In this document: positions 13,894 to 61,694 of the stretch, piece by piece | Layout: every line of letters starts with the position of its first letter | Position numbering within the stretch: the stretch's first letter is position 1 | Assembly (NCBI GenBank): GCA_963169045.1 | Contig: CAUJDF010000057.1 | Coordinates: 62,001-126,000, forward strand | Source of the DNA: Myxococcota bacterium | GTDB taxonomy: Bacteria; Myxococcota_A; Bradymonadia; UBA7976; UBA1532 | Direction of reading: 5' to 3' | Length of the DNA: 64,000 nucleotides | Notes under the pieces: generated by a model | Told to the model about the DNA's origin: nothing | Database searches by the model: none | What the model saw: only the letters and a program-made list of their open reading frames with translations | Position numbers and translations under genes: made by a program

Positions 13894-14145
13894 GACGCCG
13901 TTACGACCACGTGACCCCGCGACCGGCTGCCGTCACGGAGCGGCCCCGCCCCCATCCGCCGATTGACGGAGGGAAACAAGTCGGCGATACCCTCCCGAGC
14001 CCCGGGGGATGCGGCGATTCAGAAGACCGCCGAGTCCACTGAACGCGCACGGCGAGGGGCATCCGAGGAGTGGGCACGGTTGTTGCCCTTGGGCCCGGAC
14101 GGACACCCGACGAAGACCCCCCGACGCGGGGAGGAGACACAGACG
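13894..14145 (+). promoter_or_regulatory. upstream region of nirK with a putative sigma70-type promoter
   Basis: This 252-base stretch has no gene. TTGACG at 13963-13968 and GATACC at 13986-13991 are separated by 17 bases, a plausible -35/-10 pair. The TGAC-N4-GTCA palindrome found near ric is not present here; a loose CACGTG lies at 13909. A strong ribosome-binding site (GGGGAGGAG) precedes the nirK ATG. The long leader of roughly 150 bases downstream of the putative promoter is GC-rich and I see no riboswitch in it. Confidence 0.35.
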
Positions 14146-18567: not shown

Positions 18568-18697
18568 TTTCACCTCCTTGTCGTCCTCCGGAGGGGGCAG
18601 TGCAATCCCCGATCCGAGAGAATCGGCGCGGCGCGAAAAAGGGCCCGCGGAGCGCTTGCGTAGAGCGTGTCGTGACCTCGACCCAAGGGAGCACGAC

Positions 18698-44631: not shown

Positions 44632-45788
44632 GGGCGCACCTCACAGAGGTTCAGATCGGCGGGGATGGGACGGCGCGCCTGGCCGTCCGGGTGCGGACAC
44701 GTCAGGTCGACGTAGACCTGGGCGTTGCCGCCCTGGCGCTGGCAGAGGAAGCGGGCGAAGCCTTCGACCACGTCGACGCGGGCGCGCTTCATCAGGCTGA
44801 TCCACACGTCGTGGACGTGGTCCCGCGCGTCGACGGGGGTGCGCTCGGGGCCGGTGGCCCAGGAGACGCTGCAGTCGATCATCCGGATGGGCGAGAACAT
44901 GCGCCACGAGAAGCGCTCGTCGAACTCGTCGTCGGAGACGTAGTAGCGGAGCGGCAGCAGGACCTGCATGGCGACGACCGCGGCGATGAAGACGTTGGCG
45001 AACCGCTTGCGGCCTGAACCGGCGTCGCCGGCGCCCGCGGGGGCCGCCGGTGCCCCGGGGCCTTCGTCGTCGTCGGCGGCGACCGGCAGCGGCGGAGCGG
45101 CGGCGCTCGAGGCCGACAGGGCGGGCGCCGGGGCGGCAACGGACGCGGCGGCGAGCCGGCGCTCGTCGCGCACGACGTCGGACAGCGACCGCAGCACGCC
45201 CGCCGGACAGACGGCGACGCAGTCCCCGCAGCCGGTGCAGCCGGCGTCGTCGAGCGCCCCCTCGCCGCGGAAGCCCATCGACACGCCGGTGCCCCAGCCG
45301 GTGCGGCGGATGACGTCGCGGTCCCCGCACGCGCGGATGCAGCGGTCGCAATGCACGCACGGCGCCGGCAGCACGGCGATGTAGTCGGACGAGCGGTCGA
45401 AGCCGGGACGCGCCGGCGGCGGCGTCCACGGCGCGTCCATGACCCCGTAGTCCCGGGCCAGCGCGTCGACCTCGCAGCCGTCGCGACCGCACGGGCCGCC
45501 GTGCTCGGCGAGCGCCATCTCGACGACGGCGCGCCGGATCGCTGCGAGCCCGTCGCCGTCCGTCCGCACCGCCATGCCCCCCTGGGCGGCGACGTGGCAG
45601 GCGGCGACGGGGCGCGCGCTGCCCTCCACCTCGACCAGGCACATGCGGCATACGGCGCGCGAGGGCAGGCCCGGCACGTGGCAGAGGTGGGGGACGTCCG
45701 CGCCCGCCGCGCGCGCCGCGTCGAGGAGCGTCGCCCCCCGGCGCACGCGGACGGACCGCCCGTCCACGTTCAGCTCGATGGATTGCAT
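44628..45788 (-). CDS. NuoG-like Fe-S protein fused to a carboxylase-like membrane tail
   Basis: A 386-residue protein. Residues 1-85 form a [2Fe-2S] plant-type ferredoxin (CHVPGLPSRAVCRMCL with a further Cys). A short NuoG-type segment (HGGPCGRDGC) and two [4Fe-4S] motifs (CVHCDRCIRACGD, CTGCGDCVAVCP) follow to about residue 215. After an Ala-rich linker comes a helix and LLPLRYYVSDDEFDERFSWRMFSPIRM, resembling the region of vitamin K carboxylase homologs that follows HTTM. It is coupled to RnfD-NuoF upstream and HTTM downstream, so it could route electrons from a flavin to the membrane protein (inference). Confidence 0.8.
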   Translation of the reverse strand: MQSIELNVDGRSVRVRRGATLLDAARAAGADVPHLCHVPGLPSRAVCRMCLVEVEGSARPVAACHVAAQGGMAVRTDGDGLAAIRRAVVEMALAEHGGPCGRDGCEVDALARDYGVMDAPWTPPPARPGFDRSSDYIAVLPAPCVHCDRCIRACGDRDVIRRTGWGTGVSMGFRGEGALDDAGCTGCGDCVAVCPAGVLRSLSDVVRDERRLAAASVAAPAPALSASSAAAPPLPVAADDDEGPGAPAAPAGAGDAGSGRKRFANVFIAAVVAMQVLLPLRYYVSDDEFDERFSWRMFSPIRMIDCSVSWATGPERTPVDARDHVHDVWISLMKRARVDVVEGFARFLCQRQGGNAQVYVDLTCPHPDGQARRPIPADLNLCEVRP

Positions 45789-47902
45789 GCGTCACACCTC
45801 CCCTTCTCGGCGTGGGCGGCCACGGCCTGCGGCCAGTGGCGGATCACGGAAACGACGCGGCCGGGGGCGGCGATCCCCAGGCCGCAGGTCGAAGCGCGGG
45901 CGAGCACCGCCGACAGGGTGGCGATGCGCGCGCGTCCGACGTCGTCGAGCGCGCCGTCGGCGAGGGCGCCCCACAGGCGCGCGAGGTCGCCGGTGCCCAC
46001 GCGGCACGGCGTGCAGCGGCCGCAGGACTCGTCCCGGAAGAAGCGGGCCGCGGTGAGCGCCTCGCGGACGACGCACTCGCCGGCGTCGAGCACGCGCACG
46101 GCGCCCGTGCCGATCGACGCGCCGGCCTCGGCGAGCGCGCGGGCCTCGAACGGTGTGTCGATGGCGTCGGGCGGCAACAGACCGCCGGACCAACCGCCGA
46201 CCGCGAAGCCACCGAGGCGCGCGTCGTCGCACAAGCCCCCGCCGCGGCTCAGGATGTCGCGCAGCGGCGTCCCCGGCTCGACCTCGTACACGCCCGGGTG
46301 CCGCACGGCGCCCGAGAGCGAGACGAGGCGCGGGGGCGCGCGATCCGAGCCGAGCACCGCGGGCAGCCAGGCGAGCGTCTCCACGTTCTGGACGACGGTG
46401 GGGCGGCCGTCGAGGCCCCGCTCGGACGGATACGGCGGCCGCGGGTGCGCCTCGACGCGGCCGCCGGCCAGGAAGTCGAGCAGCGCGGTCTCCTCGCCGG
46501 CCACGTAGCGGCCGGGGCCGCGCCGGATCTCGCACGCGGGGAGCGGGCCGGCCTCGTGCCGCAGGTCGACGAGCGCGTGCTCGAGGGCGCGCGCGCCGGC
46601 GTGGAAGGCCGGATCGAGGACGAAGACCACGCGGTCCGCGCCGAGCACCGTGGCGGCGATCATCGCGCCCTCGGCGACCGAGGCGGCGTGGTGTTGCAGC
46701 AGGTAGCGGTCCTTGAAGGTCTCCGGCTCGCCCTCCTGGCCGTTGACGACGAGGACGCGCGGCCCCGGATGGCGCAGGGCGGCGGCCCACTTGTCGGCAA
46801 CGGGGAAGCCGGCGCCGCCGCAGCCGCGCAGGCCGGAGGCGCGCACCTTCGCGAGGGCCGCGGCGGGATCGAGGCGGACCCCGTCGAGGACGCGCGGCGC
46901 CGGCAGCACGGTCAGGCCCGGGCCGGCGGGCAGCGACTCGGTCCGACCGTGCTCGTCGGGGAGCGAGGCGGCGAGGGGCGTCATCGTGACGGGGCGGGCG
47001 CGGCGCGGCCGGGCGAAACGGTCGAGCGCGGGCGTGGCGGCGTTCATGATCAGGACGCCCCACATCTCCGCGCCGGGGATCGACGTGTAGAGGCGGCCGA
47101 AGACGCCGATCGCGGCGGCGCCGAAGCCGAACGCGAGGCCGCCGATGCGGGTCTGGGGCGCGGTCACCGGGTCGGTGGCGAAGAACGCGGCGTTCAGGAG
47201 GGTGGCACTGCCAAGCAGGTAGATGGCGGGGTCGAGCAGCCAGGGCGCGTGCCCCGCGACCTGCGTCGTCGCCGGCAGGAACGCGACGAGCACCGGCGCG
47301 GTGACGAGCAGGGCCAGCGGCGCCTCGCGCTTGAGCGCCACCACGCCGATCATCAGCGCCGCGACGAGGCCGAGCAGCAGCGCGCTCGTCTCGCCGATGG
47401 CGCCGCCGCGCGCGCCGGCGAGCAGGTCCCAGACGGCGGGGCTGACGAAGCCGCCGGCCTCCTTGGCGAGCGGGCTCGCGGCGCTGACCGCGTCGGGCGC
47501 CGCCTTCACCACCGGCTCGAAGACCTCGAGGACCGCGACGGCCGCGCGCCCGAAGGCCGCGGGGTTGAAGAGGTTGCGGCCGAGGCGCGGCAGGCGCCAC
47601 TTGCCGGGCAGCTCGGCGACGAGGGCGCCGACGACGATGAAGGGCAGCGGTGTGTCGGCCTTGAGCGTGAGGCCGAGCAGCAGGCCGGTGATGACGCTCC
47701 CCGGGTTGAACCAGCGGAAGGGCGCGCCGGCCAGCGCGCGCGGGACGATGCCCGCCGCCATCGTGAGCGCGATGGAGAACGCGAGCACGAGGGCGGCGCG
47801 CGGTCCGCCGCCGAGGACGCCGAGCAGCGCCACCGGCGCGAGCAGGGCGATCGCCGCGCCCCGTGCGCCGAGGCGGGCGCGCCACTTCGCCCCCGGGATC
47901 AT
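45770..47902 (-). CDS. RnfD/NqrB-NuoF fusion protein
   Basis: A 710-residue protein. Residues about 1-300 are an RnfD/NqrB-type membrane part with FNPAAFGRAAV, GSATLLNAAFFATDPVTAP and GVLIMNAATPALD. Residues about 330-700 are a NuoF-like flavin and Fe-S part: SGLRGCGGAGFPVADKW (FMN loop), VVNGQEGEPETFKDRY, a slot for NAD or another donor, and the [4Fe-4S] motif ESCGRCTPCRVG with a later Cys. It resembles RnfC plus RnfD fused in one chain, and should move electrons between a soluble donor and membrane quinone or the next protein. The ATG at 47902 overlaps the pentaheme gene stop. Confidence 0.85.
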   Translation of the reverse strand: MIPGAKWRARLGARGAAIALLAPVALLGVLGGGPRAALVLAFSIALTMAAGIVPRALAGAPFRWFNPGSVITGLLLGLTLKADTPLPFIVVGALVAELPGKWRLPRLGRNLFNPAAFGRAAVAVLEVFEPVVKAAPDAVSAASPLAKEAGGFVSPAVWDLLAGARGGAIGETSALLLGLVAALMIGVVALKREAPLALLVTAPVLVAFLPATTQVAGHAPWLLDPAIYLLGSATLLNAAFFATDPVTAPQTRIGGLAFGFGAAAIGVFGRLYTSIPGAEMWGVLIMNAATPALDRFARPRRARPVTMTPLAASLPDEHGRTESLPAGPGLTVLPAPRVLDGVRLDPAAALAKVRASGLRGCGGAGFPVADKWAAALRHPGPRVLVVNGQEGEPETFKDRYLLQHHAASVAEGAMIAATVLGADRVVFVLDPAFHAGARALEHALVDLRHEAGPLPACEIRRGPGRYVAGEETALLDFLAGGRVEAHPRPPYPSERGLDGRPTVVQNVETLAWLPAVLGSDRAPPRLVSLSGAVRHPGVYEVEPGTPLRDILSRGGGLCDDARLGGFAVGGWSGGLLPPDAIDTPFEARALAEAGASIGTGAVRVLDAGECVVREALTAARFFRDESCGRCTPCRVGTGDLARLWGALADGALDDVGRARIATLSAVLARASTCGLGIAAPGRVVSVIRHWPQAVAAHAEKGRCDACNPSS

Positions 47903-48378
47903 GGCAGCACCTCCTGCCACGGCGTGTCCTGCGTCCAGGCGGCGCTCTGGCGCGGGGCATGGCATCCGGCGCACTCGGTGACGACGTCGGTATGGCACGT
48001 GGCGCAGGCCGAAGGGCGCAGGCGGCCGAGGAGCGCGTGTCGGCGAGCGTCGTCGTCGCCGCCGATCGGGCGCCGGAAGCCTTCGGTGTGCGTGTCCGGC
48101 GGCAGCGCATGGCAGTCACGACACTCGTCGACCGTGTGGCACGACAGACAGCGCTCGGGGCGGGCCTGCGGCGCGCGCCCGTGGGTCGTCGCCCAGGCGG
48201 GATCGGCGTGGTACTGCGGATGCGCGCCGGCGATGGCGTCGTCCTGGTGGCACTGGGCGCAGTCGCCGCGGGCCCAGCGCTCGGCGGGCAGCGGCGGGTG
48301 GTCGCCGCCGGCGCGCAGGGCGCGGGCGCCCATGACGACGAGCAGCACGGCGGCGAGGATGAGCGCGAGCCCCTTCAC
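47899..48378 (-). CDS. pentaheme c-type cytochrome
   Basis: A 159-residue protein with an N-terminal hydrophobic anchor (GLALILAAVLLVVMGARAL) and five CXXCH motifs: CAQCH, CLSCH, CRDCH, CATCH, CAGCH. It starts at GTG 48378 overlapping the upstream stop (GTGA) with GGAGGG before it. Situated between the SUMF1-fold genes and the RnfD-NuoF fusion, it probably carries electrons in the periplasm between a membrane module and the larger multiheme proteins. Confidence 0.88.
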   Translation of the reverse strand: MKGLALILAAVLLVVMGARALRAGGDHPPLPAERWARGDCAQCHQDDAIAGAHPQYHADPAWATTHGRAPQARPERCLSCHTVDECRDCHALPPDTHTEGFRRPIGGDDDARRHALLGRLRPSACATCHTDVVTECAGCHAPRQSAAWTQDTPWQEVLP

Positions 48379-49997
48379 GTGCCCTCCGCGTCGGTGGCGC
48401 AACGAAAGCCGAGGTCGAAGGCGCGAAAGTCGGGCGCCCGGTACTGTCCGGCACCGCCGCGCACGCCGCTCGGCGGGCTGACGGCGCTGCCGCCGGCGAC
48501 GAAGCCCTCCTCCGTCCACTCGGCGACGTTGCCGGCGAGGTGGAGGGCGCCGGACGGCGCGGCGCCCCCGGCGAAGGAGTCGGCCGGGGCCGCGTAGGTG
48601 TATCCGTCGCGCTCGCCCCACTTCTCGCCCCCGGTGTTGGCGCGGCGCCAGTCCCAGGCGTCGCCCCAGGGCCAGCGGCGGCCATCGGCGCCCCGCGCCG
48701 CCTTCTCGTGCTCGCGGCGCGTGGGCAGGCGCTTGCCGGCCCAGCGGGCGAACGCGTAGGCGTCCCACCAGTCCACGCCGACGACCGGGTCGCCCGGGCG
48801 GCGGAAGGTGCCCGCGTCGAAGGGCGCGACGCGCGCCGCGGGCGAGTCGCGGAAGAGCGCGGCGCGGTACTCGCGCCAGTAGCGGGGCGTGTGGTCCTTG
48901 TCGGCGGGCTCGGCGGGGTGGCAGTGCGCGTGCGGGTCGTCGCGCGTGCTCTCGAGGAAGCGGCCGTAGGCGGCGTTCGTGACCTCGGTGCGGTCGATGC
49001 GGAAGGCGGCGAGCGTGTCGGCGGCGCGGTCGTCGCCCGTCCGGAACGGGCCCGCCTCGACGCGGACGAGCGCGCCGGCCTCGGGGCGCTGGGCGCCCAC
49101 GGCGGGTGTCGTCGGCGGCGTGGTGCGGTCCGGCGGCGGGGGCGCGTCGCCGGCGACGGGGACGCCGCTCGGCAGCAGGCACGGCGGCGCGCCGCAAGGG
49201 GGCGAGACGGCTGGGGTTTCCGCGACGGCCGGCGCGGCGGGACACAGTCGGCCGGGCCAGCCGGGGGTGCGGTGCTCGCCGCCGTCGCGGTCGACCACGA
49301 GCGCCTCGACGCCGGCAGGGAGCCGGGCGAGGCCGGCGCGCACCGGGCCGTCGCAGAGGTCGTGCGCGACGAGCGCGACGTCGGGCTCGGGGGCGCCGAC
49401 GACGAAGGCGCGGCGACACTCGCCGGCGCCGTCGGCCTGGGCGAGGGCGCCGTCGGTGAGCGCGCCGGCGGCGAGGGCGCGGTCGGGCCACTGCGGGTGG
49501 AAGAGCGTCACCGCCGAAGCGCCCCGGACGTACACCAGCGCCAGGACGTCCGTGCTCGTGCTCGCGCTCGTCCCGGTGACGGCGACGCGGATGTCGCCGC
49601 CGCCCTCGGCGAGGGCGTCGAACGCCGTCCGCGCGGCGCCGCCCAGCAGCCGCGCCCGGTCCGGCCCGCGGGCCGGGCTCTCGACCGCGGGGCCGCGGGC
49701 CGTCGTCGGGCGCTGCGGCGCCTCCGCGAACCCGCGCAGCCGCCGCGCCGCGACCGCCGTCGCGAGGGCCGCGCGATCCGCCTCTCCGGCGACCTCGAGC
49801 GTGAACGCCGCCCCCAGAACCACGAGCTCGCGCCGCGTCCGCTCCCCCTCGCGTCTCGCGGGCGGCAGCGCCGGCGCCGTCGCCCGGACGACCACCGCGG
49901 GCGCGGGCGCGGGCGCGGGCCGGAGCGCGTTCCACGTCAGCGCGAGGCCCACCCCGACGACGAACACCAGCAGCGCCGCGCGGCGCTGCGCGCTCAC
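48375..49997 (-). CDS. SUMF1-fold protein with N-terminal helix
   Basis: A 540-residue protein. A single N-terminal helix (RRAALLVFVVGVGLALTWNA) is followed by about 270 residues of Ala/Pro-rich sequence with a TPM-like or lectin-like segment, then a SUMF1 domain from residue 300: FRIDRTEVTNAAYGRFLE, DAYAFARWAGKRLPTRREHE, WPWGDAWDWRRAN, ALHLAGNVAEWTEEG and LGFRCATDA. No FGE catalytic Cys pair is seen at the C-terminal end. It begins at GTG 49997 overlapping the previous stop, and its stop overlaps the pentaheme gene. It may help assemble or anchor the cluster's cytochromes (inference). Confidence 0.72.
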   Translation of the reverse strand: MSAQRRAALLVFVVGVGLALTWNALRPAPAPAPAVVVRATAPALPPARREGERTRRELVVLGAAFTLEVAGEADRAALATAVAARRLRGFAEAPQRPTTARGPAVESPARGPDRARLLGGAARTAFDALAEGGGDIRVAVTGTSASTSTDVLALVYVRGASAVTLFHPQWPDRALAAGALTDGALAQADGAGECRRAFVVGAPEPDVALVAHDLCDGPVRAGLARLPAGVEALVVDRDGGEHRTPGWPGRLCPAAPAVAETPAVSPPCGAPPCLLPSGVPVAGDAPPPPDRTTPPTTPAVGAQRPEAGALVRVEAGPFRTGDDRAADTLAAFRIDRTEVTNAAYGRFLESTRDDPHAHCHPAEPADKDHTPRYWREYRAALFRDSPAARVAPFDAGTFRRPGDPVVGVDWWDAYAFARWAGKRLPTRREHEKAARGADGRRWPWGDAWDWRRANTGGEKWGERDGYTYAAPADSFAGGAAPSGALHLAGNVAEWTEEGFVAGGSAVSPPSGVRGGAGQYRAPDFRAFDLGFRCATDAEGT

Positions 49998-50797
49998 GGC
50001 GTCCCTCCCGAGAGCGACAGCGCGCAGCGGAAGCCGACGTCGTCGTAGAAGTGCCGCGGGTTCTCGGCGCCGCGCCGCGCCCGGCGCGCGTGCTCCGCGC
50101 CCGCCGACGCCCAGCCGCCGCCGCGGACCACCCGCCGCGTCGAACGCTCGTTGCCGGGCACCGCGCCCGCCGCCACGAAGCGCGCCTCGGGCGCCGCGCC
50201 GGCGTCCGGACCGCGCGGATCGGCCGCGCCGTCCAGCGTCGCGTACGCGTACCGGTCGTAGTGATCGGCCACCCATTCGCGGACGTTGCCGCCGAGGTTG
50301 AGCACGCCGAGCGCCGTGCGGTCGAAGCTCGACGAGGCCGCCGCGGGCCCCGCCGACGGGGCGCGGTCCGCGATCGCGCGGCCCGGCTCGAACACCGGGC
50401 CCCAGGGATAGCGGTGCGGCCCGGCGGCCACCTCCCACTCGGCCTCGGTCGGCAGTCGGCGGCCCGCCCAGCGCGCGTAGGCGTCGGCGTCCTCCCACGT
50501 GACGAAGCGGACGGGCAGGTCCTCGCCCCCGGGCGGGAAGCCGCGCATCCACGGCCCGCGCGGGCGGTAACCGCTGGTCCGCACGAAGGCGGCGAAGCGC
50601 GCGTTCGTCACCTCGGTGCGGTCGATCAGGAAGGCCGACAGGCGCACGCGCACGGCGGGGCGCTCGTCGTAGCGTCCCGCCGCGTCGCCGATCGTGTATT
50701 CGCCCGCGTCGATCCGCACCATCTCGGCGCCGTCGACCGGCGACACGACGCGGCCGTCCCCCGTCGGGGTCAACAGGAGCGCGACGAGCAGCCACAT
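49994..50797 (-). CDS. SUMF1-fold protein, exported
   Basis: A 267-residue protein with a short signal peptide (WLLVALLLTPTGDG) and a complete SUMF1-type fold: MVRIDAGEYTIGDAAGRYDE, IDRTEVTNARFAAFV, DAYARWAGRRLPTEAEWE, ALGVLNLGGNVREWVAD and GFRCALSLSG. The Cys residues used by true formylglycine-generating enzymes are missing, as in NirV. The ATG at 50797 overlaps the stop of the upstream beta-propeller cytochrome, so it follows that protein in the same operon. Confidence 0.8.
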   Translation of the reverse strand: MWLLVALLLTPTGDGRVVSPVDGAEMVRIDAGEYTIGDAAGRYDERPAVRVRLSAFLIDRTEVTNARFAAFVRTSGYRPRGPWMRGFPPGGEDLPVRFVTWEDADAYARWAGRRLPTEAEWEVAAGPHRYPWGPVFEPGRAIADRAPSAGPAAASSSFDRTALGVLNLGGNVREWVADHYDRYAYATLDGAADPRGPDAGAAPEARFVAAGAVPGNERSTRRVVRGGGWASAGAEHARRARRGAENPRHFYDDVGFRCALSLSGGTP

Positions 50798-53700
50798 CAC
50801 TCGATGCTCAACAGGAACGACGACAGATCCTCGATCTGTCGCGGGGTGAGATGGGAGGTGCCGCCGTGGCTGTCGACGACCTGGTCCTCGAGGTCGAGCG
50901 GCCCGTCGGGCGTGCGCGTCGTCAGCTCGTTGAAGCCGCTCTCGCGGCCGCCGGGGCGCGCGTCCTCGGGGCCGAGGCGCACCGGCAGGCGGAAGCGCCG
51001 CAGCGAGGGGTGGCCCGGCGTCGCCAGCACCTCGCGGATCGACCGCGCCCGCCCGTGGTGCAGGAAGACCGGCGGCCGATCCCACAGCCCGCGCAGCTGC
51101 ATCGTCGTGAAGGAGCCCTCGCGGTCCTCGACGCGCCCGCCATCGGTGGGATCCAGATCGAGGTCGTCACGCTCGTTGGCGCGCTCCACGGCGCGCACGC
51201 CGGCGAGCGTGTAGGACGCGTCGCGTCGCGTGATGGTGGTCAGCGGCGGCAGCGCGCGGCGGTCGTTCGGCGCCAGCAGCTCGGATTTGTTCGTGAATTC
51301 GGGCGCGGTGTGGCAGACGCCGCACGCGACGCGCGCGTCGTCGAACAGATGGCGCCCGCGGACGACGGCCGGGTGCTCCTGGTCGTACGGGTTGGGCGGC
51401 AGGCGCGTCGAGTTGCCCATGAAAGCGCCGACGAAGCGGTACAGGTCGGTCAGGTCGTGGGCGGCGCCGAACCAGCGCAGCGACTGCTGCCGGATGAACG
51501 CGTCGCGGCGCGCGTCGAGGTCGTGGCCGACGGCGCCGAGCTTCGTCACGAGCACGCGCTCTTTGAGCTCCTCGTGCTGCGGCGGGCGGACCTCGGTGGC
51601 CTTCCAGTCGGTGAAGTCGCCGGCCCACACCGGGCGGTCGAAGTCGACGGAGCTCGCCGGCTCGTTGATGTCGGCCCCCTGCCCCTCCGACAGGCGGTGC
51701 GTGCCTTCGAAGTAGAACGGCTGGATGGCGAACAGATTGCGGACCGAAGGGATGCCGAGCGTGCCGCCGGGGGTCTGATGGCCGTCGCGGTCCTGCCCGA
51801 TCGACTCGCCGGCGCCCCAGCCGCGGCCGTCGCCGGTGTCGCGCACGTGGCAATGACTGCACGAGGTGTCGCCGTCGGAGCTGAACACCGCCGTCCGCAC
51901 CACGAAGGCGCCCTTCTCCGCGTCGGTGTCGAGCGCCGGACGCGCGAGATCGCCGACGACGACGTCGCGGCGCGCGCCGCTCGCCGCGTCGATGAGGCTC
52001 ACCGTCTCCGCCATCTGGTTGGCGACGAAGAGCATGCCTTCCGACGGCGTGCCGGGCGTCCCCGCGACCACGCCGACCGGCCGCAGGCCCGTGTCGATCG
52101 CGCGGACCGGCTCCATGCGGTCGGCCGGATCCCGCGCGTCGGGCCGCAGGACCCACTCGACGACCTCGAACGTGCCGGCCATGGTCACGAACAGACGGTC
52201 GCCGACGACCGCCGCCCACTCGGGGAAGGCACCGTGGACGCGCTGCAGCTCCGGCGGCAGGTCGCCCTTCACGTCGCCCGTCGTCGCCTCGGCCGTGTCC
52301 GACGTGTAGCGCACCCACTCCGGGTGGGATTCGTAGCGGCTGGCGTCGAGCAGGTACGCGGGCTCGCGGCCGGGCGTCGCCGCCGGGATGCGCAGCCGCC
52401 GCAGGTCGATCGCCACGACGTCGTTCTGGATGTCGCGCATCTTGAAGTTCCAGGTGCCGTCGACGGCGTCGAAGGGTCCCATCGTCGCCTGCTCGTCCCA
52501 GGGGAACGGGTCGGTCGTGACGGGGTCGCGCAGCACCGTGCGCTGCGCCGCGGGATGGCTCGGATCCCACGTCTCCGCACCGAAGGGATCGCGCGCCTTC
52601 GTGGCGCCGAAGCCGGCGCCGAGCGTGAGCACGACGAGGTGGTCGCCGACGACGGCGAGGTGGTTGGCGAGGCTCTGCAGGTAGAGCGCGCCCACCTCGC
52701 GGTTGGCTTCGGTGTCGACGATCGACACGTCCATCGTGCCGGTGTTGCCGACGAACAAATGACGGCCGTCGGGCGACAGGGCCAGGTCCTTGGGATGGCT
52801 GCCGGCGTTGCCGACGGGGATGCCGGGCCCGCCCTCGCCGGCGCGGACCCACTCGACGATGCGCGCGAGGTCCGGGTCGTCGGGCGCGAACAGGGCGCCG
52901 CCGGGGTGGAACTCGGTGGTGGTGCGCTCGTCGCCGAAGCCGCCGAGGCTCTTCGGCACGACGGCGCGCACGAGCGGGCTCTCGAACGGGCGCCCGCCCA
53001 CGGCGTTCTCCACCGCCGACAGGAAGTTCTCGACCGGGTCGGGCCCGGCGACGAAGCCGCCCGCCGACTCGGCGTGGCAGCGGCCGCAGCGGGCGCGCAG
53101 CAGACCGTCGATGCCGCCGCTGCCGGCGGCCGCCTTCGCGATCTCCGCCGCCGAGTAGCCGCGCGCAGCGAGGTCCGCGGCGAGCTGCGGCGAGGGCGCG
53201 TCGTCGCCGTAGAACGCCGCGTCGTCGAAGCCGCCCACCTCGCGCACGCGGGCCGAGAAGTGCGACGTGCCGGCGTGCACGTCGAGCACGAGCACCTGGT
53301 CGAGGTAGCGGTTGGCGACCCAGGCGCGGCGGCCGTCCGCGGAGAAGACGAGGCCCTGGCAGTAGAAGTCGAGCGGGATCTCGCCGGCGACGGTGTCGGT
53401 GTAGGTGTCGACAACGGTGGCGTAGTTGGCCAGCTCGTTGGTGACGACGAGGTAGCGGCCGCCGGGGTGCGGGACGAGCGCGTACGGCTTCGGACCGACG
53501 GGGATGCGGCCGCGCACGGCGCCGGTGACGACGTCGACGACGGCCAGCGCGCGTCCGGGGCGCTCGTGGTCGCCGGGCAGCGTGACGTAGAGCTTCCGGC
53601 CCGTGGCGTCGAGAGCGACGCGCTCCGGCAGCTCGCGGCGCGGCTGCGGCTCGGGCAGCGGGTTGTTGTTGGGGACGGGCGAGAGCTCGCGGCGCACGAA

Positions 53701-53844
53701 GGGCTGCCGGTAGCGCCACACGTCGCTCGTGAGCTGCGAGAAGCGCGTGCGCGTGTGGACGGGCGCTCGATCGCCGGACACGAGCGAGGAGCGTGGCGCG
53801 GACGCGGCGCCGACGACGAGGGCGACGACCAGCAGCCGCTTCAT
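50797..53844 (-). CDS. beta-propeller and diheme peroxidase-like cytochrome (hydrazine synthase beta-gamma-like)
   Basis: A 1015-residue exported protein. Residues about 60-600 hold YVTN-type propeller repeats (RKLYVTLPGD, RRAWVANRYLDQVLVLDV, RHLFVGNTGTMDVSIVDT) with one inserted heme motif CGRCH (H257). Residues about 640-1015 resemble the diheme MauG/cytochrome c peroxidase family with CSHCH (H666) and CGVCH (H845) 179 residues apart, plus PEFTNKSEL and GLWDRPPVFLHHGRA. Hydrazine synthase has this layout as a propeller beta subunit and a MauG-like gamma subunit. The adjacent upstream gene resembles the alpha subunit. Function as HZS is inferred, not shown. Confidence 0.8.
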   Translation of the reverse strand: MKRLLVVALVVGAASAPRSSLVSGDRAPVHTRTRFSQLTSDVWRYRQPFVRRELSPVPNNNPLPEPQPRRELPERVALDATGRKLYVTLPGDHERPGRALAVVDVVTGAVRGRIPVGPKPYALVPHPGGRYLVVTNELANYATVVDTYTDTVAGEIPLDFYCQGLVFSADGRRAWVANRYLDQVLVLDVHAGTSHFSARVREVGGFDDAAFYGDDAPSPQLAADLAARGYSAAEIAKAAAGSGGIDGLLRARCGRCHAESAGGFVAGPDPVENFLSAVENAVGGRPFESPLVRAVVPKSLGGFGDERTTTEFHPGGALFAPDDPDLARIVEWVRAGEGGPGIPVGNAGSHPKDLALSPDGRHLFVGNTGTMDVSIVDTEANREVGALYLQSLANHLAVVGDHLVVLTLGAGFGATKARDPFGAETWDPSHPAAQRTVLRDPVTTDPFPWDEQATMGPFDAVDGTWNFKMRDIQNDVVAIDLRRLRIPAATPGREPAYLLDASRYESHPEWVRYTSDTAEATTGDVKGDLPPELQRVHGAFPEWAAVVGDRLFVTMAGTFEVVEWVLRPDARDPADRMEPVRAIDTGLRPVGVVAGTPGTPSEGMLFVANQMAETVSLIDAASGARRDVVVGDLARPALDTDAEKGAFVVRTAVFSSDGDTSCSHCHVRDTGDGRGWGAGESIGQDRDGHQTPGGTLGIPSVRNLFAIQPFYFEGTHRLSEGQGADINEPASSVDFDRPVWAGDFTDWKATEVRPPQHEELKERVLVTKLGAVGHDLDARRDAFIRQQSLRWFGAAHDLTDLYRFVGAFMGNSTRLPPNPYDQEHPAVVRGRHLFDDARVACGVCHTAPEFTNKSELLAPNDRRALPPLTTITRRDASYTLAGVRAVERANERDDLDLDPTDGGRVEDREGSFTTMQLRGLWDRPPVFLHHGRARSIREVLATPGHPSLRRFRLPVRLGPEDARPGGRESGFNELTTRTPDGPLDLEDQVVDSHGGTSHLTPRQIEDLSSFLLSIE

Positions 53845-56800
53845 GGCGACACCGGGGGGCGCGCTCCGTGGAACGGCGCGCCGAGGTCGATCCAGCGCGC
53901 GAGCGTGCGCAGGTCCTCGGCGGCGGGCGCGGCGTGGCCGCGCAGCTTCTCGAAGAGGGCGCTCTCGCTCGACAGCGCCTCGCGCTCGTTCACGAGCGGC
54001 AGCAGGCGCTCGTACGGGGCCGAGAAGCGCGCGCCCGGCGCGTCGCGCAGGTCCTCGTGGCAGGCCACGCAGGCGCGATCGAGCACGGGCTGCACGTCGC
54101 GCCGGAAGTCGACCGCCACCGGCGCCTGCCGTGCGGGCGGCAGACGGCGCGCCGCGGTCGCGTCCCAGTTCGCCATCACCTGCGAGGCCGAGGTCACGAC
54201 GTCAGGCGGCCCGATGGCCTGCGTCCGCTCGCCGGTGAGGGCGCCATGGCAGCCGCCGCACCGCAGCGGGAAGACGGACCGCGGGATGGAGAACGTCAGT
54301 TTTTCGCCGGGTTGCACGTAGAACCAGCGGTTGGTGCGGTGCAGCGCGCGGCCGTCCGCGTCGAGCGCCTGCAGGTCGAGCGGCGTCTCGGGCGGGACCT
54401 GCACCTGGAACGACCCGTCCGGCTCGAGCGGCACCTCGGCGACGATCCACTCGCGGCCGTGCAGCCCGGCGCCGGCGGCGTCGTCGGGGCCGCGCGGCGG
54501 GTCGTGGGCGATGACGCGCACCGCGTGCAGCCGCGACTCGGCGAAGTCCCGGGGTCCCACCGGCGCGAAGTGCGTCAGGAACGATTGCAGCAGCGGGTAG
54601 TCGTAACACTCGACCACCGCCGGCGCGTCCGGCGCCGCCCGCAGCACGCCGTCCTCGCGGCGCGTCTTCGTCCCGGCGACGAACTTCTGCTCGGTGTGCG
54701 CCCGCTCCTTGAGCCGCACCACGATGGGGCGCGGCGTGTGCTCGGCGAAGGCCGCCGAGCCGGCGAGGCGCTCCCGCGTGAATGGGCCGGTGCGGCGCCC
54801 CGCCTCGACGGCGCCCTCGAACCGCAGGCGGTACACGTCCCAGTCGGGATCGGCGTCCGGGTCGAGGTGGTCGATCGGGCCGGCGGCGTGGGCGGCGAGG
54901 ACCGTCCCGTCGGGCAGCGGGTACGGATCGCGCCACGCGCCGCCGGGCGAGCGGCCCGTCACCGTGACGGCGTCCGGGCCCGTCTCGGCGAAGAACGTGA
55001 ACTGCGCCGGCAGGAAGCGCGGCGACGACGAGGCCGGCTTGTCGTCGGGCCCGAGCGGCAGGTCGTCCACCGGGTTGTCGGGCTCGACGTCCGGGCCGAA
55101 GCCGTGGTCGGCGAGCAGCAGCAGGCCGCCGCCCCACAGGTTGCGCGGGTCGAGCGCCATCCGCACCTCGAGCCCCTGGGGCGTCTCGCGCGAGTCGGCG
55201 ACCACCGGGTAGCGCGAGCGGTTGTTGCCGTGGATGTGGTAGTCGAAGCCGCCCGACATGACGCGGTAGATGGCGCCGGCGAACACCGGGCGGTCGGCCT
55301 GGTCGCCGCTGTCGCGGACGCTCGTGAACATCACCTCGCCGCTGGTGCGCATCGTCGGGCGGCGGTCCTGCGCGCTGCCGAAGGTCATGCGGCGGGCGGG
55401 GCGGCCGGGCACGAGGCGCCACACGTCGTAGGCCGGGGCGAGGCGGTTCGAGGCGTCCTCGACGACGTAGACCGTCCGGCGGTCGGGGGCATCCGGGAGC
55501 GGCGCGTCGAGCTCGAGGCGGGCGCCGACGACGCTGTCCGGGTCGGCGAGGTGGGCCACGATCGTGCGCTCCTCGCCGGCGAACGGCCCGGCGACGATCG
55601 CGAGGCGGCGGCCGGCGAGCGTGCCCGGCGCCTCGGTGCGCTGCGCGTCGACGATCGTGCGGGCCGTGCCGCCGTCGGCCTCGCCGATCAGCGCCCGCGC
55701 CGCGGTGGAGGCCCAGACGCCGGCCGCGTTCGAGGCGTACACGATCGCGACGTCGTCGAGGGCGGACTCGGCGCCCGGTCCCGGCGCGTAGAGCGGGTCG
55801 ACGTGGTGGATCAGCGTGCCGTCGGCGAGGCGTTCGGGGCCGTCGCTGACCTGGCGCGGCGGTCCGGGGACGAGGTCGTCGTCGAGCGCCACCTCGTACA
55901 GACGGAAGGGCGCGTCGGCGCTTGAGCGCGCCGCGAAGACGAGGGCGCGCGCGTCGTAGCGCACGTCGAGGCCGAGCACCTCCACCGGACCGAGCGCTGC
56001 GGTCACGCTGACCGGATTGCCATCGAGCGGCTGCACGACGACCTCGCCGCCGCCGTGGAACGGCTCGACGTCGAAGAAGCGGCGCGGCGCGTGGCGCGGA
56101 CCACGGACGTACGCGATCCCCCGCAAGCGGCCGAGGGCGTCGGCGGCGATGGACCCGCCGCCGCTCGTGAGGCGCAGCGCCGCCCGCTCGGCCCCGAGCC
56201 AGCGCACGAGCCGCCGGGCGTCCGGGTCGTCGAGCGACTCGAGGAACTGCCCGTTGCCGCCGCGGTGCAGGACGCCGCCCTCCGAAATCGGGAGCGTTTT
56301 CGCGACGATGCGGCTCAGCCCGAGGTCGCCGCCCAGGTTCGCGAAGCGGGTCACGGCGCCGAGCGCCTGCGCCCGGTCGTGGGCGAGCAGGCGCGGCGAG
56401 AAGCCGGCGCCGGGCCGCATCGGGGCGTCGGCGCGCGGCAGCGGCGGCGTCAGCTTCAGGTCGTTGAACGCGTCCGGGCCGTGGCACGCCTGCATGAAGC
56501 AGCCGTTGCGCACGAGCACGCCGAGCGCCTCCTCCCGGAACGCGGCGACGTCGCCGGCCTCGGGCGCGGCCCCCTGCGTCTCGAGCGCCACCCAGGCGGT
56601 CAGCGTGCGCAGGTCCCGGTCGTCGGGCGTCGCGAAGACGTCGATGCCGCGGTGCGGCAGGCCGCCGAGCGACTCGGAGAGCGGCTTGCGGACGATCGGG
56701 CTGAACGCGGGGTCGGCGCCGGGCTCGAGGCGGTGGTGCGGATCGCGGGCCGAGTCGAACGCCGCGCGCAGGCCGTCCGGCGGGATGCGGCCCGTGCGCG

Positions 56801-57008
56801 GGTCGATCGGGAAGAGGAAGGCGCCCTCGGGCTCGGTGGCGCGGCGCGCGTCGAGGTCGGGCGTGCCGTGGCAGCCGGCGCCGCAGCGCTGCTCGAGCAC
56901 CGGCGCGACGCGCGTGCGGAACATCGCGAACGACGGGTCCTCGGCGTCGCGCTCGGCGCATCCGAGCAACACCGCGACGCACAGCAGCGCCCTCTCCCGC
57001 ACCACCAC
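53841..57008 (-). CDS. multiheme lipoprotein resembling hydrazine synthase alpha subunit
   Basis: A 1055-residue lipoprotein (ALLCVAVLLGC). The N-terminal region carries two atypical heme-like motifs, CX3CH (C42-H47) and CX4CH (C170-H176). A TolB-like propeller spans about 280-640 (GLDVRYDARALVFAAR, VAIVYASNAAG, RMTFGSAQDRRPTMRTSGEV). A middle region includes WFYVQPGEKLTFSIP, and two CXXCH motifs lie at 917-921 and 980-984. Hydrazine synthase alpha has propeller, then a domain with a five-coordinate heme, then a bis-His heme. Similar proteins occur outside anammox bacteria with unknown function. The start is GTG 57008. Confidence 0.75.
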   Translation of the reverse strand: MVVRERALLCVAVLLGCAERDAEDPSFAMFRTRVAPVLEQRCGAGCHGTPDLDARRATEPEGAFLFPIDPRTGRIPPDGLRAAFDSARDPHHRLEPGADPAFSPIVRKPLSESLGGLPHRGIDVFATPDDRDLRTLTAWVALETQGAAPEAGDVAAFREEALGVLVRNGCFMQACHGPDAFNDLKLTPPLPRADAPMRPGAGFSPRLLAHDRAQALGAVTRFANLGGDLGLSRIVAKTLPISEGGVLHRGGNGQFLESLDDPDARRLVRWLGAERAALRLTSGGGSIAADALGRLRGIAYVRGPRHAPRRFFDVEPFHGGGEVVVQPLDGNPVSVTAALGPVEVLGLDVRYDARALVFAARSSADAPFRLYEVALDDDLVPGPPRQVSDGPERLADGTLIHHVDPLYAPGPGAESALDDVAIVYASNAAGVWASTAARALIGEADGGTARTIVDAQRTEAPGTLAGRRLAIVAGPFAGEERTIVAHLADPDSVVGARLELDAPLPDAPDRRTVYVVEDASNRLAPAYDVWRLVPGRPARRMTFGSAQDRRPTMRTSGEVMFTSVRDSGDQADRPVFAGAIYRVMSGGFDYHIHGNNRSRYPVVADSRETPQGLEVRMALDPRNLWGGGLLLLADHGFGPDVEPDNPVDDLPLGPDDKPASSSPRFLPAQFTFFAETGPDAVTVTGRSPGGAWRDPYPLPDGTVLAAHAAGPIDHLDPDADPDWDVYRLRFEGAVEAGRRTGPFTRERLAGSAAFAEHTPRPIVVRLKERAHTEQKFVAGTKTRREDGVLRAAPDAPAVVECYDYPLLQSFLTHFAPVGPRDFAESRLHAVRVIAHDPPRGPDDAAGAGLHGREWIVAEVPLEPDGSFQVQVPPETPLDLQALDADGRALHRTNRWFYVQPGEKLTFSIPRSVFPLRCGGCHGALTGERTQAIGPPDVVTSASQVMANWDATAARRLPPARQAPVAVDFRRDVQPVLDRACVACHEDLRDAPGARFSAPYERLLPLVNEREALSSESALFEKLRGHAAPAAEDLRTLARWIDLGAPFHGARPPVSP

Positions 57009-57216: not shown

Positions 57217-57530
57217 GCGACCAAATCCCTGGCCGCCGCGGCGACCCGCGCGCGCGCAGCGACCGGATCGCGGCCCGCAGCGACCAGATCGCGGCCCGCA
57301 GCGACCAGATGCTCGGGCATCTCCCCAGCAGCCCTGTGCCGGTGCGGCCAAATCCCTGGAGTGCGTGGGCATATCGCGACGCGCTTTCGACCGAATGCGA
57401 TCGAGCGTGCGACCAAATCGAAGCGCGCCCGCGACCAAATCGCCGTCGCAGCCGAGCATCTCCCGGCGCGCTCCCGACCCTCGAGACGCCCGCGCGACCA
57501 AATCCGAGACGCGTCGCGACCCCAGATTCG
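57217..57530. repeat. degenerate direct repeats of GCGACCAAATC
   Basis: GCGACCAAATC is exact at 57217, 57409, 57431 and 57494. Variants GCGACCGGATC (57259), GCGACCAGATC (57280), GCGACCAGATG (57301) and GCGGCCAAATC (57344) lie between, and GCGACCCCAGATTC at 57516. Spacing is irregular apart from a 21-base tandem part at 57259-57311. The A-rich core stands out in the GC-rich background. Role unknown. Confidence 0.7.
57259..57311 (+). repeat. 21-base tandem repeat, two and a half copies
   Basis: Units at 57259-57279 and 57280-57300 differ by one base, and a partial third copy runs to 57311. Each begins with the GCGACCAGATC-type element of the larger array. Confidence 0.85.
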
Positions 57531-57748: not shown

Positions 57749-58207
57749 TCAGGGCCCGGTGCCGCCCGGCGCGGGGGGATCATCCCGGAGTGGCGCTGGG
57801 TGCCGAGCGCCGTCGTCGTCTGCTTCCACCTGTATCGCGGCACGCGTGCCGCGCACATCGGCCGGACGGCGGAGCCGGCGCGCGATCGCGAGCAGCGCAT
57901 GCGCGCCGAGCGCGGGCAGCAGCACGTCGGTGAGCGCGCGGTGCGCGAGGCGGGCGCCGCCGCGGTGCTCCGAGGGCAGCAGCGCCAGCGCGACGCCGGT
58001 GAGCGACAGCAGCGCGAGCGTGACGATCGCGACGCGCGCGAACGCGCCGGCGAGGCGCACGTCGCGCCAGCGCGCGCCCGCGGCCATGGCGACGACGAGC
58101 GGGACGAGCGGCGTCGCCAGCCAGGCGTGCTCCGGGCGGCGCCCCGGGCCGGTCGCGAGCGCGACGAGGGCGAGCGCGGCCACGGTGCCGTGCAGCAGGC
58201 GCCACAT
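57749..58207 (-). CDS. small multi-helix membrane protein
   Basis: A 152-residue protein with four hydrophobic helices (LLHGTVAALALVALAT, LATPLVPLVVAMAAG, VAIVTLALLSLTGVALALLP, LPALGAHALLAIARRL) and histidines H8 near the first helix and HRGG..AHRA on the third loop, a pattern that could bind heme b as in cytochrome b561-type or DUF4405-type proteins (inference). Its start region lies in a recent 68-base tandem duplication. It follows the octaheme repeat protein on the same strand. Confidence 0.65.
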   Translation of the reverse strand: MWRLLHGTVAALALVALATGPGRRPEHAWLATPLVPLVVAMAAGARWRDVRLAGAFARVAIVTLALLSLTGVALALLPSEHRGGARLAHRALTDVLLPALGAHALLAIARRLRRPADVRGTRAAIQVEADDDGARHPAPLRDDPPAPGGTGP

Positions 58208-58306
58208 CACGGCCCCCCGAGCATACGGCGGGACTGCGCGAGCGCGGCCACGGTGCCGTGCAGCAGGCGCCACATCACGGCCCCCCGAGCATGCGGCGGA
58301 ACTGCT
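58171..58306. repeat. 68-base tandem duplication of a gene junction
   Basis: 58171-58238 and 58239-58306 are nearly identical (only about three differing bases near their ends). Each copy spans the end of the octaheme gene and the beginning of the membrane-protein gene. The second copy keeps the stop-start overlap and creates a 22-codon frame (58207-58275, minus strand) that ends at the start codon of the membrane-protein gene. Confidence 0.9.
58207..58275 (-). CDS. 22-residue junction peptide created by tandem duplication
   Basis: This frame starts at an ATG overlapping the octaheme gene stop and reads MWRLLHGTVAALAQSRRMLGGP (given here as first part MWRLLHGTVAALA and last part QSRRMLGGP), joining the first residues of the membrane protein to the last residues of the octaheme protein. 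Its stop overlaps the real start of the membrane-protein gene, so ribosomes could pass from gene to gene through it. It is likely a by-product rather than a functional peptide. Confidence 0.4.
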   Translation of the reverse strand: MWRLLHGTVAALAQSRRMLGGP

Positions 58307-60290
58307 CGACCGCCGGACCGCCGCGGCCCTCGGCGGCGAGCGCGTCGAGCATCGCGCGGGCCTCGACGGGGCGACCGCGCGCGAGCAACAGCAGCGCGCG
58401 CGACAGCCGCGCCCCGTCGCCCGCGGGATCGAGCTGCGCCACCTCGCGCTCCGCTTCGTCCGGGCGGTTCTGCCCGATGAGGAACTGCACGAGCTCGACG
58501 CGCGGCGCCTCCACCGGACCGCCGATGGCGGCGCCGCGCCGCAGCAGCCGCTCCGCCGCGGCGGGCTCGTCGCGCAAGAAGAGCGCCGCCGCCTCCTGCG
58601 CCAGCGCCCGCGGGTCGTCGGCGCGCACCACGTCCATGCGATGCGCCACCTCGGCGCGGACCTTCGCCAGCGCCGGATCGCGGCTCACCTCGGGCCGCCG
58701 CAGGACGAGCGTCTCGTAGGCCCGGACGCGGACGACGCGCGCCGGGTCCGCCGTGGCCTCCCGCAGCGCCTCCACCGCCGCGGGCGCGTCGAACGATCCC
58801 AGGCCGCCGACGACGTAGTAGCGCACGAGCGGGTGCGGGTCGTGGCGGTGTTTCAACAGCGCGGCCATGGCATCCGGACCGTTCTCGGCGTCGCCGAGGA
58901 AGAACGCCGCGCTCGCTCGCTGCACGACCGAGCCGGCGCCGTCGTCGAGCCATCGCGCCAGCGTCGCGGTCGGTGCGGGCTCCCCGGCGAAGATCGCCGC
59001 CAGGGCCGAGGCGCGCTCCACCATGCGCGCGCGGTACGCCTCGAAGTGGGGGCGACCGCCGAACCAGCGCTGCACCGCCTCCTCGGCCCACTCGACGGGC
59101 TGGTCCGCGTGGCAGTTGCCGCAGGCGTTGGGCGCGCCGAAGCGTCGCGTCAGCTCCGGCAGCGGGCTGCCGATGGCATGGTCGCGGGCAGTCATGCGCA
59201 GGTTCAGGTCCTGCTTCGGCATGTGGCACTCGATGCAGCGGCTACCATCGGACTCGGCGCCGTGGCGGGTGTGCTCCGTCAGCTGGGTCTTGTGGCCGAG
59301 ATGGCAGGTCGTACAGAGCGCGTTGGCTTCCGTGACGGTGCGCCCGGCGGTGCTCTCGAGGCCGTGCGGCGGATGGCAGAAGCCGCAGTCCATCTGTCGC
59401 GTGGCCCGGCGGAAGCAGCCGTTCTGCATGTAATCGACGTAGCGATAGTTGAGGTTCGACGAGCGCCCGTCGGCGTGGAACGCCCCGACCTCCCACACAT
59501 CGGGCGCGAAGTGGTCGTAGAAATCGGTGCGCCCGGAGACGTAGCCCTCGGCGTAGACGCGCTTGCGCGCGTGGCACGTGGCGCAGGCCTCGATGGCGGC
59601 GTCGAGCCCGTAGCGGTCCACGGGCGCCAGCGTGCCTTCGGCCGCGGCGCGGTCCGGGCGCTCCCAGGCGCGCACGTGGGCGGCGCCGGGGCCGTGGCAT
59701 GCCTCGCAGTCGATCGTGTTCTCGAACGTGCTGGCATAGGTGTTCGTCGCCGCGTCGTAGCGCTTCTCGCCGCGACTCGAGTGACACTCGAGGCACTGCC
59801 GGTTGAAGGTGCGGCCGAAGTTGCGCCAGTGCTCCGGGTGGTTGCGCGCGAGCGGCCCCTCCCCGCTCACCGGCCCCTCGGTGGCGTCGCGCCAGGACTG
59901 CTCCTCGACGTTCCAGTAGGTGGGCAGCACCTGCAGGCGCCCGTCGGGCTCGCGGTGCAGGTAGGCCTGATGGCGGATGGCGCCGAGCACGAGGTCGATC
60001 GACCACGTCTCCTCGCGGCCGTCGGCGTCGCGGTAGGTCATGAAGTAGCGCCCGTCGCGCAGGAAGACGCGCGTGCGCGTGCCGCCGAAGGTGTAGTCGA
60101 CGTCGAGCTTGCCGAGGACGGACTCGGGCGTGGGCTCGGCGAGGTTGCGGAAGTGGGCGGAGCGGCGCCACGACGCGTAGGCCTCGGGGTGGCACGAGGC
60201 GCAGCGCTCGGCGCCGACGACGCCGCCCGGCGGCTCCGGCGGTGGCGCGCTGGAGCAGCCGAGCGCGAGGAGGAAGAGCAGGCGCCTCAT
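58275..60290 (-). CDS. octaheme c-type cytochrome lipoprotein with C-terminal HEAT/TPR repeats
   Basis: A 671-residue lipoprotein (RRLLFLLALGCSS). Eight CXXCH motifs lie in the first 400 residues: CASCH, CLECH, CEACH, CATCH, CGFCH, CTTCH, CIECH, CGNCH. The C-terminal 250 residues are HEAT-like and TPR-like helices (LVRYYVVGGLGSFDAPAAV, AAALFLRDEPAAAERLL, LLARGRPVEARAMLDAL). It resembles multiheme proteins with a tetratricopeptide tail seen in Myxococcota and Planctomycetes, where heme order follows the NrfA/HAO plan. It is coupled to the HAO-like gene by ATGA. The redox substrate is unknown. Confidence 0.85.
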   Translation of the reverse strand: MRRLLFLLALGCSSAPPPEPPGGVVGAERCASCHPEAYASWRRSAHFRNLAEPTPESVLGKLDVDYTFGGTRTRVFLRDGRYFMTYRDADGREETWSIDLVLGAIRHQAYLHREPDGRLQVLPTYWNVEEQSWRDATEGPVSGEGPLARNHPEHWRNFGRTFNRQCLECHSSRGEKRYDAATNTYASTFENTIDCEACHGPGAAHVRAWERPDRAAAEGTLAPVDRYGLDAAIEACATCHARKRVYAEGYVSGRTDFYDHFAPDVWEVGAFHADGRSSNLNYRYVDYMQNGCFRRATRQMDCGFCHPPHGLESTAGRTVTEANALCTTCHLGHKTQLTEHTRHGAESDGSRCIECHMPKQDLNLRMTARDHAIGSPLPELTRRFGAPNACGNCHADQPVEWAEEAVQRWFGGRPHFEAYRARMVERASALAAIFAGEPAPTATLARWLDDGAGSVVQRASAAFFLGDAENGPDAMAALLKHRHDPHPLVRYYVVGGLGSFDAPAAVEALREATADPARVVRVRAYETLVLRRPEVSRDPALAKVRAEVAHRMDVVRADDPRALAQEAAALFLRDEPAAAERLLRRGAAIGGPVEAPRVELVQFLIGQNRPDEAEREVAQLDPAGDGARLSRALLLLARGRPVEARAMLDALAAEGRGGPAVEQFRRMLGGP

Positions 60291-61432
60291 CGCGCCGCCC
60301 GCAGGCGACGGGCCTCGTCGCGGATGAAGGTCAGATCGGCCTGCAGCGCCGCGTAGCCGAGCCAGTGCGCGTGGTCCGGCGAGAAGTGGTAGGCCCCCTT
60401 GAACGCGATGGCGTGGCGGAAGTGCGACATCTCGAAGAAGCGCTGCTCGATGGCGGAGGTGTCCGAGTAGAGCTGGTGGCCGCCGAGCACGAGCGCGTGC
60501 CCCGCCGCCGGGTTCGGCGGGCGGTCGGCGGGCATCGGCGCCAGGAGGCCCTCGGCGTGCAGCTCGCGCAGGATCTGCGCCGCCTCGGCGACGAGGCCGT
60601 CGGCGATGCGTTTCACCTCGTCGGCATCGGCGAGCTGGCGGCGGGCGAAGCCGGCGGAGTGGCACTCGCCGCAGACGGCGAGCATGCGCGCGCGGCCGGC
60701 GTCGAGCGTGTCGCGGTCCGCCGCCTCCATCGGGATGCCCGCGGGCGTGCCGGCGAGGACGCGGCCGTTGCCGGTGGTGCCGAGCGTGAGGCCGCCGCTG
60801 GTGTCGTGGTCGCCGGCGAGGTGGCAGGTGACGCAGGTGGGCGCGACGCCGGGGTCCTGCGCCTGCGCGAAGACGACGCCGTGCTTGGACGCGCGCCAGG
60901 CCTCGGCCTGCGGGTGGTCGGGGCCCATGTGGCAGCCCTCGCAGGCCTCGGGGCGGCGGGCCTCCTCGACCGAGAAGCGGTGGGCGGAGTGGCAGTCGGC
61001 GCAGCGGCCGCGCCCGCCGTCGGGATCGAGACGGCCGATGGCGTGGCACGAGAGGCAGCCGACGCGCTGGATCGCCGCGGGGGCCGCCTGGAAGCGGCCG
61101 TTCTGCCGGGCGGCCTCCTCGGCGCGCGCGTGGCCGCTGCGGGCGAAGCTCTCGGTCGCCGCCGCGTGGCAGTCGCCGCAGACCTTCGCCGACACCCTGC
61201 CGCCGCGGGCGAAGATGGCCTCGTGGTCGTCGCCGTGGCAGTCGGCGCAGCCTACGCCGGCGGGCATGTGCGGGCTCTGCAGCCACTGGTCGACGAGCCG
61301 CGCGTCGCGCTGCCGGTGACAGCCGACGCACTGGTCCTCGTCGACCCAGTCGCGCGCGAGCGGGGCCCAGCGCCACGCGGCCGCGGCGGTCGAGACGACG
61401 ACCGCGGCCAGCAGCGGCAGGAGTCTACGCAC
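60287..61432 (-). CDS. octaheme cytochrome of the hydroxylamine oxidoreductase type
   Basis: A 381-residue exported protein with eight CXXCH motifs at C35, C62, C85, C126, C144, C164, C200 and C254. After the hemes come helices with IEQRFFEMSHFRHAIAFKG and AYHFSPDHAHWLGYAAL, matching the C-terminal pattern of hydroxylamine oxidoreductases, where xxYxKGxxHxSPD surrounds the catalytic heme. The crosslinking Tyr of oxidative HAO appears replaced (IAF before KG), as in reductive HAO relatives. Oxidation of hydroxylamine or reduction of nitrite are the candidate reactions. It overlaps the DUF3303-like gene by 8 bases. Confidence 0.75.
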   Translation of the reverse strand: MRRLLPLLAAVVVSTAAAAWRWAPLARDWVDEDQCVGCHRQRDARLVDQWLQSPHMPAGVGCADCHGDDHEAIFARGGRVSAKVCGDCHAAATESFARSGHARAEEAARQNGRFQAAPAAIQRVGCLSCHAIGRLDPDGGRGRCADCHSAHRFSVEEARRPEACEGCHMGPDHPQAEAWRASKHGVVFAQAQDPGVAPTCVTCHLAGDHDTSGGLTLGTTGNGRVLAGTPAGIPMEAADRDTLDAGRARMLAVCGECHSAGFARRQLADADEVKRIADGLVAEAAQILRELHAEGLLAPMPADRPPNPAAGHALVLGGHQLYSDTSAIEQRFFEMSHFRHAIAFKGAYHFSPDHAHWLGYAALQADLTFIRDEARRLRAAR

Positions 61433-61694
61433 CCATCGCCTCGGCGGCGGTGAGCACCGGGACGACCTGCACGTCCACGAGTCCGTCGAACGGCGCGAGG
61501 ATGCGGTCGAGCGTCGCCCGGTCGGGCACGTCGAGCACCGAGTACGAGCCGCGCCGGTCGCCGCGGATGTAGTCGCACTCGAGCGTCACGCCGCTCGGGA
61601 TGGCGCCGTAGAACTCGCCCATCGCCGCGTAGAGGCGCGCGGTGTCGGCGGGCGTGAGGTTCGGCCGCTGCATGGCCTGGACGAGGAAGCGCAT
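61425..61694 (-). CDS. DUF3303-like small protein
   Basis: An 89-residue protein with a ferredoxin-like alpha/beta fold: MRFLVQAMQRPNLTP, GAIPSGVTLECDYIRGDRRGSYSVLDVPD and ILAPFDGLVDVQVVPVLTAAEA. Members of this family are small soluble proteins of unknown function. ATG 61694 has GGGAGGG upstream; the frame extends further but has no better start. It is the first gene of the minus-strand cluster and overlaps the HAO-like gene. Confidence 0.7.
   Translation of the reverse strand: MRFLVQAMQRPNLTPADTARLYAAMGEFYGAIPSGVTLECDYIRGDRRGSYSVLDVPDRATLDRILAPFDGLVDVQVVPVLTAAEAMGA

Follow-up and report, generated by a model that had tools for sequence, protein, structure and literature searches.

What does an HAO-like octaheme protein do beside a pair of HZS-like genes, and do the two work together? 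The question is raised by the window analysed here, a stretch of 64,000 nucleotides in which both lie on one strand about 3.3 kb apart. The HAO-like gene, P0001, and its closest neighbours are the following.

60287..61432, minus strand: P0001, HAO-like octaheme cytochrome c of the reductive type, 381 aa
58275..60290, minus strand: P0002, octaheme cytochrome with C-terminal HEAT and TPR repeats, 671 aa, probable lipoprotein
57749..58210, minus strand: four-helix membrane protein, cytochrome b561/DUF4405-like, with four His kept in orthologues
61425..61694, minus strand: DUF3303 small protein, overlapping the P0001 start by 8 bp

The P0001 open reading frame has a GTG start, a hydrophobic N-terminus and exactly eight CXXCH motifs, and its residues 345-357 read KGAYHFSPDHAHW; the eight heme motifs and the C-terminal HAO pattern named in the sequence-only reading are thus both present. 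In a phmmer search of the Protein Data Bank the best match was kustc1061 (1.4e-29), with kustc0458 at 4.9e-27, NeHAO at 5.9e-18, and further matches to Brocadia HAO, HDH and an Ignicoccus octaheme protein. The C-terminal 111 residues searched alone with phmmer gave no match. Pfam assigned Multi-haem_cyto at 2.3e-20. Judged from these sequence comparisons, the homology of P0001 to HAO is far above chance, and the protein is an octaheme cytochrome c of the HAO superfamily.

An AlphaFold (AF2) model of P0001, for which 40 aligned relatives served as input, reached a pLDDT of 86 and a pTM of 0.83. Its top structural match was 6h5l, the Kuenenia reducing HAO kustc0458 (Z 28.3, 2.3 Å rmsd over 335 residues, 32% identity), with NeHAO (Z 27.0) and kustc1061 (26.8) nearly level; Foldseek agreed on the fold match, and on these scores P0001 has the HAO fold. 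NrfA and the octaheme nitrite reductases (ONR) scored only about Z 11.7. An assignment as an NrfA/ONR nitrite reductase was rejected on this much weaker fold match, and on the lack of a CX2CK motif, all 16 Cys residues falling within CXXCH.

None of the eight heme motifs varies in alignments of 17 and of 40 relatives. Outside these motifs seven His residues are widely conserved (55, 70, 101, 151, 184, 209 and 349), by count in the alignment as many as seven bis-His hemes would require. The Asp-His pair of the solved enzymes has its aligned counterpart in Asp172-His173. Heme 4 (residues 126-130) would be an ordinary c heme open to a ligand, and the remaining seven hemes would be bis-His.

The direction in which such a protein works is judged here partly from one site, the position of NeHAO Tyr467:

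60362..60367, minus strand: codons 356 (His, 60367-60365) and 357 (Trp, 60364-60362) of P0001

It had been suggested from the sequence that the crosslinking Tyr is probably missing, with Phe344, just before KG, taken as its equivalent. The absence stands, as no Tyr occurs anywhere in residues 349-360, but the residue was misread: NeHAO Tyr467 lies within HVNPGGWTYTEGW (counted in NeHAO chain 306-488), and by the same chain count Phe344 falls 12-13 residues too early. In a 100-row MAFFT alignment the Tyr467 column corresponds to His356 of P0001; Tyr occupies it in NeHAO, HDH and a Methylomirabilis protein, and His in 37 of the 100 rows, the kustc1061 row being excluded from this reading of Tyr as MAFFT shifts it by 1-2 residues near a small insert. 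His356 was also obtained from the register of the C-terminal helix in the structural alignment (P0001 model 381 equals 4fas chain 492). Eight residues on from the shared His (NeHAO 459, P0001 349), the count arrives instead at Trp357, because the cross-linked enzymes carry one extra residue in the loop. By either count the residue is not Tyr, and kustc0458, which aligns with P0001 across the cross-link region without a gap, has Trp-Trp there. P0001 therefore lacks the Tyr cross-linked to heme P460 that marks oxidative HAO, HOX and HDH, and with His356/Trp357 at the NeHAO Tyr467 position it has the non-Tyr state of the reductive, HAOr-like proteins.

His at the key site has been reported in reductive HAOs, the form carried by most bacteria outside anammox (Hagglund et al., PMC12758564), so that the missing Tyr in P0001 is ordinary. 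The assignment to the reductive type is upheld by this published His state, and by the nearest solved fold being that of the nitrite-reducing, non-cross-linked kustc0458. Non-cross-linked HAOs form the family majority outside anammox bacteria, and few have been characterised.

Three HAO relatives do carry Tyr at the cross-link column, within an otherwise reductive DYxYWYG motif: L121 7001-8155, L129 124-1314 and L132 5437-6675, hosted by a Deltaproteobacteria, a Desulfobacterales and a Krumholzibacteriia MAG. Judged by sequence, they may have gained the cross-link independently.

The start codon of P0002 overlaps the P0001 stop (ATGA at 60290-60287), and P0002 as encoded in the window has an imperfect lipobox. 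Five genomes of the same family carry orthologues of P0001 at 58-63% identity, and a sixth has a more divergent one at 44%. A P0002 homologue (48-57%) lies directly downstream of the HAO gene in G011, G006, G009 and G002, the locus in G006 being interrupted by a contig end, and a four-helix protein with four aligned His follows P0002 in the window, G011, G009 and G002. Three of these four membrane proteins match Pfam cytochrome b561 weakly, below the cut-off (4.6e-6, 6.5e-5 and 0.058). No DUF3303 gene was found beside the HAO gene in the relatives. Beyond the family, a P0002 homologue (29%, 1e-36) adjoins the HAO gene (50%) of the Planctomycetota MAG L055; this is the only clear HAO/P0002 pair among 80 named loci, which makes the module a minor offshoot of a wide family. 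A quick tree of the HAO relatives was used for grouping only. Two myxobacterial genomes, G002 and G009, also hold second HAO paralogues (L020 and L021, respectively) with a long N-terminal extension of collagen-like, Gly-rich repeats. The G009 paralogue L021 is identical to one from an 'uncultured Myxococcales' record (L088), which places the family, and with it the genome of the window, very probably in Myxococcota.

The best explanation of these patterns is that P0001, P0002 and the b561-like protein form an independent three-gene unit, which in this genome stands beside the HZS-like module by chance. From the gene order and its conservation, the fold, the eight heme motifs, the Asp-His pair and the missing Tyr, we consider P0001 to be probably a periplasmic octaheme reductase that has the HAO fold and no heme P460 cross-link and works in a quinol-linked unit; the electron path, direction and substrate we infer, the latter two from one residue position and from the relatives. 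Quinol electrons would enter the four-helix b561-like cytochrome, pass to the membrane-tethered octaheme HEAT/TPR protein P0002 and from there to P0001, where heme 4, free of the cross-link, would bind and reduce a nitrogen oxide (nitrite, hydroxylamine or NO). Two analogues are known: nitrite is converted to NO by HAOr (PMC12485887), and for Nautilia a reverse HAO module has been proposed that is quinol-linked and likewise lacks the Tyr (PMC3701875).

Other nitrogen-oxide genes are present in the window, listed here with the gene that follows NirK:

14080-15699, plus strand: copper nitrite reductase NirK, with a C-terminal cytochrome c-like part
15710-16477, plus strand: FGE-sulfatase-like protein after NirK
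40261-42573: quinol-type NO reductase (qNor)

The window also encodes a RIC iron-sulfur repair protein and hemerythrins, and NrfA is encoded elsewhere in the genome. Near NirK (18656-21607, plus strand) a 983-residue protein is encoded that matches DUF7452 three times and, weakly, an M12 metallopeptidase. In a comparison of 13 family genomes none of NirK, qNor and NrfA tracks the HAO gene in any clean pattern, and no other N-cycle gene is consistently common to the genomes with the HAO module. Nitrite is therefore not pinned as the substrate over hydroxylamine or NO.

This untying of the module from NirK, qNor and NrfA also speaks for an alternative in which the HAO ancestry is a scaffold only and P0001 reduces a non-nitrogen acceptor, be it a sulfur oxyanion, a metal or another extracellular acceptor, as does the linked multiheme protein with its HEAT/TPR repeats. 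We regard this as unlikely, given that the Asp-His pair and the surroundings of heme 4 are kept as in the N-oxide enzymes and that the solved relatives of known activity use nitrogen compounds. Distinctly less probable is an oxidative role, in which P0001 as a hydroxylamine or hydrazine dehydrogenase would deliver electrons to the quinone pool by way of P0002 and the b561-like protein. Its partner chain could work in either direction and its top NCBIfam match is hydrazine dehydrogenase, but at 101.7 bits against a cut-off of 900; the cross-link Tyr is missing, the nearest fold is the reducing kustc0458, and no source of hydroxylamine or hydrazine has been shown in the genome.

The reductive reading of P0001 leaves the matter of its HZS-like neighbours, which form a separate conserved module:

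53841..57008, minus strand: P0003, HZS alpha-like multiheme protein
50797..53844, minus strand: P0004, HZS beta-gamma-like fusion
48375..50800, minus strand: two FGE-sulfatase-domain proteins, kept with the HZS-like pair

The matches of P0003 and P0004 to HZS alpha and beta-gamma are weak, P0004 being made up of a YVTN propeller and three heme motifs, two of them C-terminal and one extra. Read against the positions given in PMC12758564, the alpha motif of P0003 (CGGCHGALT) has no Tyr four residues past its His, where alpha Tyr591 would be the heme ligand, and P0004 has no Cys for 174 residues after its first gamma CXXCH and thus lacks the third bond of gamma Cys165. Published HZS homologues outside anammox are likewise without key active-site residues (Hagglund et al. 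2025, PMC12758564).

Orthologues of the pair occur in G005, G073 and G069. In G073 and G069 two matching FGE-sulfatase proteins follow it, and no HAO gene was found near the pair or elsewhere in either genome. The sister genome G005 has both the HAO unit and the pair, and the 5.9 kb upstream of the latter hold a LuxR gene and no HAO unit. Conversely, the pair is missing from most genomes with the HAO unit. In draft genomes, being incomplete, one absence is weak evidence, and the pattern of separation rests on several of them. Neither linkage nor co-occurrence is thus conserved in the relatives. As each unit is kept without the other, the suggestion that P0001 feeds NO or hydroxylamine to the HZS-like pair fails this comparative test, and with NirK and a quinol-type NO reductase in the window P0001 is not needed for NO. 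A non-anammox hydrazine pathway supplied by P0001 is accordingly highly improbable despite the shared strand and proximity, as the units are non-adjacent in G005 and separated here by a 740-bp non-coding gap with repeats, the pair lacks the alpha Tyr and third gamma-heme Cys, and the 9.0 Mb genome has a single HAO-family gene and no separate HDH gene. Nearness to HZS-like genes does not make an anammox-like pathway, tempting as that reading is.

Between the two units the motif GCGACCRRATC occurs six times in less than 300 bp (57217-57504), and the whole window has seven copies where 0.5 would be expected. Immediately downstream of the HZS-like module come three minus-strand genes (45770-47902, 44628-45788 and 47899-48402). 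They encode a NuoF-like NADH-binding protein with a fused RnfD/NqrB-like domain, a HoxU/NuoG-like ferredoxin and a small cytochrome with five CXXCH motifs, and form a possible NADH-to-periplasm electron route; this cluster was not found beside the pair in G073 or G069.

P0001 thus belongs to a known kind of protein, and the mildly new part is its three-gene electron chain. We tentatively propose that this is an undescribed quinol-to-HAO reductase chain (b561-like, HEAT/TPR octaheme, HAO-fold) of myxobacteria; its HAO/HEAT-TPR pair is found in at least one planctomycete as well. If true, it would be a second route, besides NapC/NrfH partners, for powering non-cross-linked HAOs. Since the conserved unit is compact and points to its own redox partners, both substrate and electron feed become testable.

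Among known systems, P0001 resembles the HAOr kustc0458/kustc0457 of Kuenenia stuttgartiensis (6h5l) in its octaheme HAO fold (Z 28.3), its lack of the cross-link Tyr and its probable role as a reductase, and the C-terminal KG...H...W.G pattern aligns gap-free with kustc0458. It is, however, only 32% identical and more than 100 residues shorter, and whereas kustc0458 is partnered by kustc0457, P0001 is followed by P0002, with its eight hemes and HEAT/TPR repeats, and by the b561-like membrane protein. Compared by description, HaoA of Nautilia and Campylobacter (reverse HURM, PMC3701875) is likewise an HAO family member without the critical Tyr and with a proposed quinol link through a membrane partner; that partner is a tetraheme cytochrome of the NapC/NrfH type, in contrast to the b561-like and octaheme proteins found here. 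With NeHAO (1fgj, 4fas), the kustc1061 HOX (4n4j) and HDH (6hif) P0001 shares the fold, eight hemes and the Asp-His pair, yet those enzymes have the cross-linking Tyr where P0001 has His/Trp. The HZS-like pair, for its part, resembles clades I-IV of Hagglund et al. 2025 (PMC12758564) in having the alpha gene before the beta-gamma gene and in the loss of active-site residues; unlike those homologues, which are accompanied by FG-GAP or ABC-transporter genes, the pair in this probable myxobacterial genome has two FGE-sulfatase proteins downstream.
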